NCBI RefSeq assembly: GCF_001586775.1
Contig: NZ_LQXS01000003.1
Span: forward strand, 124,001 to 188,000
DNA from: Sphingobacterium populi
GTDB lineage: Bacteria > Bacteroidota > Bacteroidia > Sphingobacteriales > Sphingobacteriaceae
Direction of reading: 5' to 3'
DNA length: 64,000 nucleotides
Position 1 is the first letter of the stretch. Each line of letters starts with the position of its first letter. The notes under the pieces were generated by a model. The model saw nothing but the letters and a program-made list of their open reading frames with translations, was not told the origin of the DNA and did not search any database. Below, one piece after another: positions 36,237-38,153 of this stretch. The position numbers and the translations under genes are program-made.

Positions 36237-38153
36237 ATGGCCAGATTAAATTTATTGGAAGAAACTCGGTTTGAGAAGGTGCCTGTTAAGGTATATCCCA
36301 CAGCAGATGAGGCGTCGATCGATGTAGCTCACCGTATTTCACACTTGATTCAAAGCAAACAACACAACGGTGAAAAAGCAATTTTGGGCTTGGCTACCGG
36401 TGCTACGCCTATCAAAGTGTATCGTGAGCTAGTGCGTTTGCACCGCGAGGAAGGATTAAGCTTTCAAAATGTCGTCACATTCAACCTGGATGAATATTAT
36501 CCGATGCACCCGACGGCAGATCAGAGTTACGTTTCTTTCATGAAAAAACATCTGTTTGATCTGGTTGATATTCCTACTGAAAATATTCATATTCCGGATG
36601 GTACCATTCCTTCAGATCAGGTTCACGCTTACTGTGAGGAGTACGAGCGCAAGATCAGCAGTTATGGCGGTTTAGATATTCAACTGTTAGGTATTGGTCG
36701 TACAGGTCACATTGGTTTCAATGAGCCCGGTTCAGCGCCAAACTCGGGTACGCGTTTAGTCACGTTAGATGATTTGACGCGTAGAGATGCTTCCAGAGAT
36801 TTTGGTGGTAAAGAAAATGTACCTACCAAAGCCATTACGATGGGAGTGGGAACTATATTCAAAGCCAAGGAAATAATCTTGATGGCTTGGAATGAGAAAA
36901 AAGCAGAAATCGTTAAGAAAGCCATAGAAGGCGAACTTTCGGCAGATATTCCTGCAACGTATTTGCAACTTTCAGATAATGTAGAATTCATCCTAGATCA
37001 AGACGCCGCTTCTTTATTGACGCGTTTTGATACGCCTTGGTTGGCCGAAGACGTGATCTGGACGGATGAATTGGCCAAAAAGGCGGTTGTATGGCTTTCT
37101 TTGGAATTGGATAAAGCGATTCTAAAGCTTACTGACGATGACTATAATACGCACGGTATGGCGCAGTTGGTTACGGAGAGAGGGCCGGCTTATGGCATCA
37201 ATATTCGCGTATTCAATGAATTGCAACGCACGATTACTGGCTGGCCAGGAGGCAAGCCCGGCGTAGACGATTCCAACCGCCCAGAGCGAGCTAATCCTGC
37301 TTCTAAAAATGTAATTCTTTTCTCGCCACATCCAGATGACGATGTGATCTCGATGGGAGGCACGTTTATCCGTTTGGCAGATCAAGGCCATCAGGTGCAT
37401 GTGGCGTACCAGACGTCTGGCAATACCGCAGTGTGGGATGATGATGTATTGCGCTATTTAGAATTTGTGATTGATTTTGCGTCGAGCGCCGAAGAAAAAG
37501 AGGCTAAACAAAAAATTTATGAAGAAGCCAGAACCTTTTTCGCGTCTAAAAAGCCAAATCAAGTAGATCCTGAAGTGATTCGCACTGTAAAAGGTTTGAT
37601 TCGTAAAGGAGAAGCGATTGCTGGAGCGCGTTTTGTTGGATTGCCTGATGAGCACATTCATTTTCAAGATTTACCATTTTACGATCGGGGCAAATTTTCT
37701 AAAGAGGTAGATTTTGAAGACGATATACAACAAACGATGGATTTGCTTCGCCAAGTAAAACCACATCAAGTATTTGCCGCAGGCGATTTTGCAGATCCAC
37801 ATGGCACACACCGCGTGTGTTTTGATATCATTCTACAAGCGTTGCTTCGCTTAAGAGAAACTGACGAATGGACGAAAGATTGCTGGTTGTGGTTGTATCG
37901 CGGTGCTTGGCATGAGTACCCGATCCATGAGATTGAGATGGCTGTTCCGCTTTCTCCACAAGAGGTGAAGCGTAAACGTATCGCGATTTTCAAACATCAA
38001 TCGCAGAAAGATGTGCCGGTCTTCCCGGGCGATGATCCGCGCGAATTCTGGGTGCGTGCTGAAGACCGTACTAGTGAAACTGCCGGCTTGTATCACAAGC
38101 TTGGCCTTGCTAATTACGAAGCCATTGAAGCATTCGTTCGCTGGAAATTTTAA
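36237..38153 (+). CDS. nagB: NagB-like glucosamine-6-phosphate deaminase fused to PIG-L/LmbE deacetylase
   Basis: A 638-aa two-domain protein. Residues ~15-265 are NagB-like: LGLATGATPIKVY, TFNLDEYYPM (D85, E86) and LLGIGRTGHIGFNEPGS (H158, E163). In E. coli NagB the residue two before the catalytic His is Asp (D141, NDGH); here it is Thr (T156). Residues ~357-560 are an LmbE/PIG-L domain: FSPHPDDDVISMGG (H365, D367, D368) and DPHGTHR (about 520-526) give the zinc site of N-acetylglucosamine deacetylases. The fusion suggests coupled deacetylation and deamination of GlcNAc-6-phosphate to fructose-6-phosphate, but this is inference. This long form is known in Bacteroidota. Cytosolic, monocistronic, with a terminator downstream. 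Confidence 0.9.
   Translation: MARLNLLEETRFEKVPVKVYPTADEASIDVAHRISHLIQSKQHNGEKAILGLATGATPIKVYRELVRLHREEGLSFQNVVTFNLDEYYPMHPTADQSYVSFMKKHLFDLVDIPTENIHIPDGTIPSDQVHAYCEEYERKISSYGGLDIQLLGIGRTGHIGFNEPGSAPNSGTRLVTLDDLTRRDASRDFGGKENVPTKAITMGVGTIFKAKEIILMAWNEKKAEIVKKAIEGELSADIPATYLQLSDNVEFILDQDAASLLTRFDTPWLAEDVIWTDELAKKAVVWLSLELDKAILKLTDDDYNTHGMAQLVTERGPAYGINIRVFNELQRTITGWPGGKPGVDDSNRPERANPASKNVILFSPHPDDDVISMGGTFIRLADQGHQVHVAYQTSGNTAVWDDDVLRYLEFVIDFASSAEEKEAKQKIYEEARTFFASKKPNQVDPEVIRTVKGLIRKGEAIAGARFVGLPDEHIHFQDLPFYDRGKFSKEVDFEDDIQQTMDLLRQVKPHQVFAAGDFADPHGTHRVCFDIILQALLRLRETDEWTKDCWLWLYRGAWHEYPIHEIEMAVPLSPQEVKRKRIAIFKHQSQKDVPVFPGDDPREFWVRAEDRTSETAGLYHKLGLANYEAIEAFVRWKF

Follow-up and report, generated by a model that had tools for sequence, protein, structure and literature searches.

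The 64,000-nucleotide window of Sphingobacterium populi analyzed here contains a gene whose product joins a half of the NagB type (glucosamine-6-phosphate deaminase, GlcN6P deaminase) to a half of the LmbE/PIG-L type, and the NagB half carries Thr where E. coli NagB has Asp141. This raises the question of whether both halves are active enzymes, and of which amino sugar they act on.

The gene and its family

The gene is a single uninterrupted open reading frame with the following parts:

36237..38153, + strand: NagB-LmbE fusion gene, 638 aa, member of NF002557/PRK02122 (Pfam and NCBIfam profiles)
36279..37022, + strand: NagB (GlcN6P deaminase) domain, residues 15-262 (PF01182; model against 2bkv)
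37023..37301, + strand: helical linker, residues 263-355 (secondary structure in the AlphaFold2 model)
37302..38150, + strand: LmbE/PIG-L deacetylase domain, residues 356-638 (PF02585; model against BshB 6p2t and diacetylchitobiose deacetylases)

Glucosamine_iso (PF01182) was found above the gathering cut-off at residues 22-244, and PIG-L (PF02585) at residues 361-535 with 62.3 bits against a gathering cut-off of 28.2. The reading frame and these domains confirm the fusion described in an earlier sequence-only reading, which had also taken both halves to be folded; in an AlphaFold2 model of the window protein (38 sequences; mean pLDDT 89.1, pTM 0.83) both domains were indeed well folded.

The protein matched the family NF002557/PRK02122, "glucosamine-6-phosphate deaminase-like protein", over its whole length and without difference (1025.7 bits against a cut-off of 384; residues 5-638 correspond to profile positions 19-652). 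It passed the nagB equivalog TIGR00502 (247.2 bits, cut-off 236.9) and fell below the cut-offs of the NagB subfamily model NF001684 (257.9 of 326 bits) and of TIGR04001, the BshB1 bacillithiol deacetylase (28.6 against 182.5 bits). A pattern scan of bacterial genomes found relatives encoded in 533 stretches, the best 80 of which were all from Bacteroidota by record titles. The window gene belongs fully to a catalogued fusion family, is ordinary for Bacteroidota, and is not an oddity. A frameshift or chance fusion was ruled out, since 130 full-length aligned sequences share the architecture, which is under strong constraint. In a tree of the NagB domains a single clade of all fusions was not resolved, with many forks open and bootstrap values not settled. 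We take BT0258 of Bacteroides thetaiotaomicron to be a member of NF002557/PRK02122. A literature search found no NagB-LmbE fusion with tested activity; an iron-response table lists BT0258 as a GlcN6P deaminase (PMC10434189), and a ChIP table gives PGN_0606 of P. gingivalis as deaminase-like (PMC3764172).

The LmbE half, gene neighborhoods, and NagA

Residues were counted in 38 fusion proteins less than 80% identical, with NagB of E. coli and B. subtilis as reference sequences. In full, the LmbE motifs of the window protein read S-P-H365-P-D367-D368-D and D-P-H522-G-T-H525:

37329..37340, + strand: LmbE metal/base motif H365-P-D367-D368 (H365 and D368 in 38/38, D367 in 37/38)
37800..37811, + strand: second LmbE motif H522-G-T-H525 (H522 and H525 in 38/38)

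By MshB numbering, these conserved residues are presumably the metal ligands, general base and acid. With all HPDD and HxxH residues present the zinc site is complete, as had been noted from the sequence. Residues 356-638 of the model superimposed on BshB (6p2t) with Z 23.5 and rmsd 2.6 over 209 residues, and on diacetylchitobiose deacetylases, found with Foldseek and then structurally aligned, with Z about 21-22. The C-terminal half thus shares both motifs and the fold with diacetylchitobiose deacetylase (8bgn, 3wl4) and BshB at Z 21-23.5, but is only about 20-22% identical to them and sits fused behind NagB. In a sequence search, the sole matches of this half were diacetylchitobiose deacetylases and a single LmbE-related protein, with weak E-values. 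This half is very likely to be a functional LmbE-type deacetylase. We predict, with slightly less than even confidence, that it acts on GlcNAc-6-P, because of the gene's locations and of where NagA is missing. The proposed step is that of NagA (TIGR00221), which belongs to an unrelated amidohydrolase family.

The neighbors of the window gene itself, encoding a TlpA-like thioredoxin, a Cys/Met PLP enzyme and an S41 protease, are uninformative on amino sugars. Ten clusters of amino-sugar marker genes were looked for within about 10 kb of the fusion. Of 42 distant fusion loci, 21 had at least one, whereas none occurred in 40 control stretches that were equal in size and drawn from the same genomes (Fisher p 3.7e-8). 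This p-value is optimistic, as the markers were picked after the neighbors had been seen and the loci are not independent. At a chitin locus (L150), SusC/D-like genes, a Thr-type fusion, a GH20 gene and the gene for a 1578-aa GH18 protein lie in a row, together with a two-component pair. The F. johnsoniae chitin locus is arranged in this way, and by that arrangement its nagB, Fjoh_4557, would also be a NagB-LmbE fusion. Deletion of Fjoh_4557 gave no phenotype, which was put down to three further genes resembling nagB, and attempts to express the protein failed (PMC5127042). In locus L154:8003-18126 a fusion with RTGHV and a full zinc site directly follows nagA (287.6 bits, TIGR00221); a GlcNAc 2-epimerase, a sialate esterase, an MFS transporter and a NanA-like lyase are also encoded in this apparent sialate operon. 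AnmK and NagX-like genes adjoin the fusion in L169, and a NagP-like transporter is encoded near it in L066.

A fusion paralogue was seen in L163:2389-10471 and L066:116-8540 beside genes for an APH-type kinase, a nucleotidyl transferase or NagP-like transporter, KduI, and a KduD-like dehydrogenase, a gene set that points to a locus for glycosaminoglycan or uronate use. In genome G107 this paralogue has Asn at position 141.

The earlier reading had proposed a search for canonical nagA and nagB, and neither was found in the window genome (3.56 Mb, 95.6% complete). Profile searches for nagA gave partial hits of at most 23 bits, the three weak hits being other amidohydrolases, and the sole other PF01182 gene is a 6-phosphogluconolactonase. 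The genome has two further PIG-L genes, one of them BshB1 (L083, 269.3 bits against TIGR04001), three GH20 genes, a kinase weakly resembling NagK between pfkA and gapA, and a weak NagP-like match only. A long PIG-L protein, with a frame of about 900 aa, is encoded on its contig C4 (L085:1-2061).

Within Sphingobacterium, nagA was found in 56 of 60 genomes and the NagB half in all 60, nearly always in a frame of fusion length. The two nearest relatives of the window strain, S. corticibacter and S. chungjuense, carry the fusion at 98% identity and lack nagA. Relative to these, dN of the window gene was 0.005 in the NagB half and 0.011-0.014 in the LmbE half, at a dS of 0.49-1.4. Since dN is this low, both halves are under purifying selection and neither is decaying after the loss of NagA. 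In a phylum sample of 118 genomes, 39 had the fusion and 32 of these lacked nagA. Its presence in 7/39 fusion genomes compares with 8/11 genomes having stand-alone NagB only (Fisher p 0.0012, kinship ignored), a contrast that is confounded by phylogeny and arises only against stand-alone-NagB genomes. Over all genomes the fusion and NagA were not anti-correlated (nagA in 7/39 against 9/79, p 0.39).

It is a realistic, if lesser, possibility that the N-terminal half is a normal GlcN6P deaminase and that the LmbE half deacetylates something else, NagA handling GlcNAc-6-P where present. Candidates would be free GlcNAc, a chito-oligosaccharide as in the archaeal diacetylchitobiose deacetylase, a cell-wall sugar or another amide. 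All 56 nagA-containing genomes of the genus also carry the fusion's NagB half, and since NagA and the fusion coexist there, most of the genus does not depend on the C-terminal half for deacetylating GlcNAc-6-P; yet the clade of the window strain, without NagA, holds the fusion under strong constraint. Likewise, nagA adjoins the fusion in the sialate operon, but is missing from most fusion genomes of the phylum sample. The AnmK and NagX-like neighbors point to cell-wall recycling, and diacetylchitobiose deacetylases are the closest solved relatives of the C-terminal half by sequence, although structurally BshB scores similarly.

The NagB half and the Asp141 position

The following residues of the NagB half were compared with the E. 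coli enzyme:

36489..36491, + strand: Asp85 (E. coli Asp72), invariant in 38/38
36702..36704, + strand: Thr156 (at the E. coli Asp141 position), Thr 25, Asn 7 and Ser 6 of 38
36708..36710, + strand: His158 (E. coli catalytic His143), invariant in 38/38
36723..36725, + strand: Glu163 (E. coli Glu148), invariant in 38/38
36900..36902, + strand: Lys222 (E. coli Lys208), invariant in 38/38

The fold and the equivalents of Asp72, His143, Glu148, and Lys208 are shared with E. coli NagB (1dea/1cd5), while the window protein differs from it by the replacement of Asp141 and by the additional LmbE domain. The phosphate-loop T-G is invariant in the 38 fusions. Arg172 of E. coli NagB is a phosphate ligand; its column varies among the fusions (Ser 17, Arg 9, Tyr 5), and the window protein keeps the residue as Arg187.

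The sequence-only reading had described the catalytic NDGH motif as changed to RTGH. The alignment agrees with the replacement, with Arg155 falling on E. coli Asn140 and Thr156 on Asp141, but NDGH is canonical for the E. coli-like branch only. None of the 38 fusions has Asp in this column, and a lineage-specific loss of Asp141 was ruled out, as Thr, Asn or Ser is the state of the whole family. B. subtilis NagB (2bkv), the nearest solved relative, reads RNGH (GIGRNGH), and residues 15-262 of the model superimposed on 2bkv_B with Z 38.0 and rmsd 1.2 over 242 residues at 44% identity. Like the window protein, the B. subtilis protein (2bkv/2bkx) has an RxGH motif in which the residue in place of Asp141 is neutral; it differs in having Asn instead of Thr and no LmbE domain. 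It is an active monomeric GlcN6P deaminase with a tabulated KM of 0.13 mM (PMC9812318), and GamA and NagB of B. subtilis are GlcN6P deaminase isozymes (PMC3648570), whereas E. coli NagB is an allosteric hexamer (PMC4008608). Since an active enzyme has Asn there, Asp141 is a mark of the E. coli-like, hexameric branch and not of all deaminases. In the phylum sample, stand-alone NagB genes come in an xDGH and an xNGH type. The comparison corrects a common reading of this site: a NagB active site can do without Asp141. We predict that the NagB half is very likely a monomeric-type GlcN6P deaminase.

The earlier suggestion that the lost Asp means altered chemistry or a different sugar, so that the N-terminal half is not a GlcN6P deaminase, is unlikely. 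That the family mostly has Thr and never Asp at this position is in its favor, as is the variable Arg172 column, even with Arg187 kept in the window protein; the activity of the Asn-type B. subtilis NagB and the four invariant catalytic equivalents argue against it. Moreover, Asn-bearing and Thr-bearing fusion paralogues have identical architecture, and the Thr form fills the NagB slot in GlcNAc and sialate loci, namely the chitin locus and the sialate operon. It is also highly improbable that one half is non-catalytic, with the NagB half acting for example as a sugar-phosphate sensor for the deacetylase or as a scaffold: domain fusions are sometimes regulatory, but the catalytic residues of both halves are complete and conserved in the 38 members, and both are under similar constraint.

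Proposed function and further fusions

In the best reading, to which we give about an even chance, an active deaminase half, the usual GlcN6P deaminase of Bacteroidota, is joined to a working deacetylase half, plausibly converting GlcNAc-6-P to Fru-6-P in one chain. The zinc-dependent C-terminal half would deacetylate an N-acetylated amino sugar of the pathway, most likely GlcNAc-6-P, and the N-terminal half would convert glucosamine-6-phosphate to fructose-6-phosphate and ammonia using His158, Asp85, and Glu163, with Thr156 merely occupying the place of Asn in monomeric NagB. A single chain running both steps would matter most where NagA has been lost, as in the window genome. Both activities and the deacetylase substrate we infer from the NF002557 and TIGR00502 scores, the invariant catalytic residues, the superposition on 2bkv and the active Asn-type NagB of B. 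subtilis; from the amino-sugar loci, including those with Thr-type fusions (L154 and L150); and from the NagB half in 60/60 genomes of the genus, the constrained gene of the nagA-free clade and the NagA contrast in the phylum. The complete sites, purifying selection and amino-sugar loci thereby lend partial support to the earlier proposal of deacetylation and deamination in one chain. The lack of a phenotype on deletion of Fjoh_4557, the coexistence of NagA and the fusion in most of the genus, the silence of the window gene's own neighbors, the weakness of the NagP-like hit and the phylogenetic confounding of the NagA contrast count against this reading.

Tentatively, and with somewhat less than even confidence, we propose that such a one-chain enzyme replaces NagA in the many Bacteroidota lacking it, including this species. 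As 32 of 39 fusion genomes are without NagA, amino-sugar catabolism in a large part of the phylum may rest on a deaminase-fused deacetylase of another superfamily. The nagA-free Sphingobacterium clade offers a clean testing ground for such a replacement.

Several genomes were found to have more than one fusion locus. S. alkalisoli (L008/L047) and Sphingobacterium sp. SGR-19 (L023/L052) each have two separate loci, and three occur in certain other genomes of the class. Genome G099 has two or three copies broken at contig ends (contigs C6, C35, C29, and C30), which are likely paralogues collapsed in assembly. In Sphingobacterium sp. UT-1RO-CII-1 a stand-alone RTGH NagB of 264 aa (L030:8961-9755; 383.2 bits against NF002557) lies directly upstream of the fusion and has the appearance of either a partial tandem duplication or a gene fission.

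A second, unlabelled NagB-LmbE fusion family of 775-797 aa (about 790) was found at ten loci of the phylum sample (L193-L202; for example L196:8387-10768 and L201:8114-10453). The three members that were scanned scored 188-229 bits, below the NF002557 cut-off, and had no Pfam match above cut-off. A profile-profile comparison matched the two families (probability 100, E 2.4e-52) over a region that starts at the N-terminus, includes the linker and extends into the LmbE half. In a model of the second family (pLDDT 78.0), residues 42-349 matched NagB (Z 23) and residues 426-777 matched LmbE proteins (Z 15.7). It is a mirror image of the NF002557 fusions in that Asp141 (GIGPDGHI) and His143 are kept, while Val, Ile or Thr takes the place of Glu148; its LmbE motifs are PHHDD and DTH. 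The genes around it include those for canonical NagB, NagX-like proteins, ROK and BadF kinases, and GH18/GH20 enzymes.
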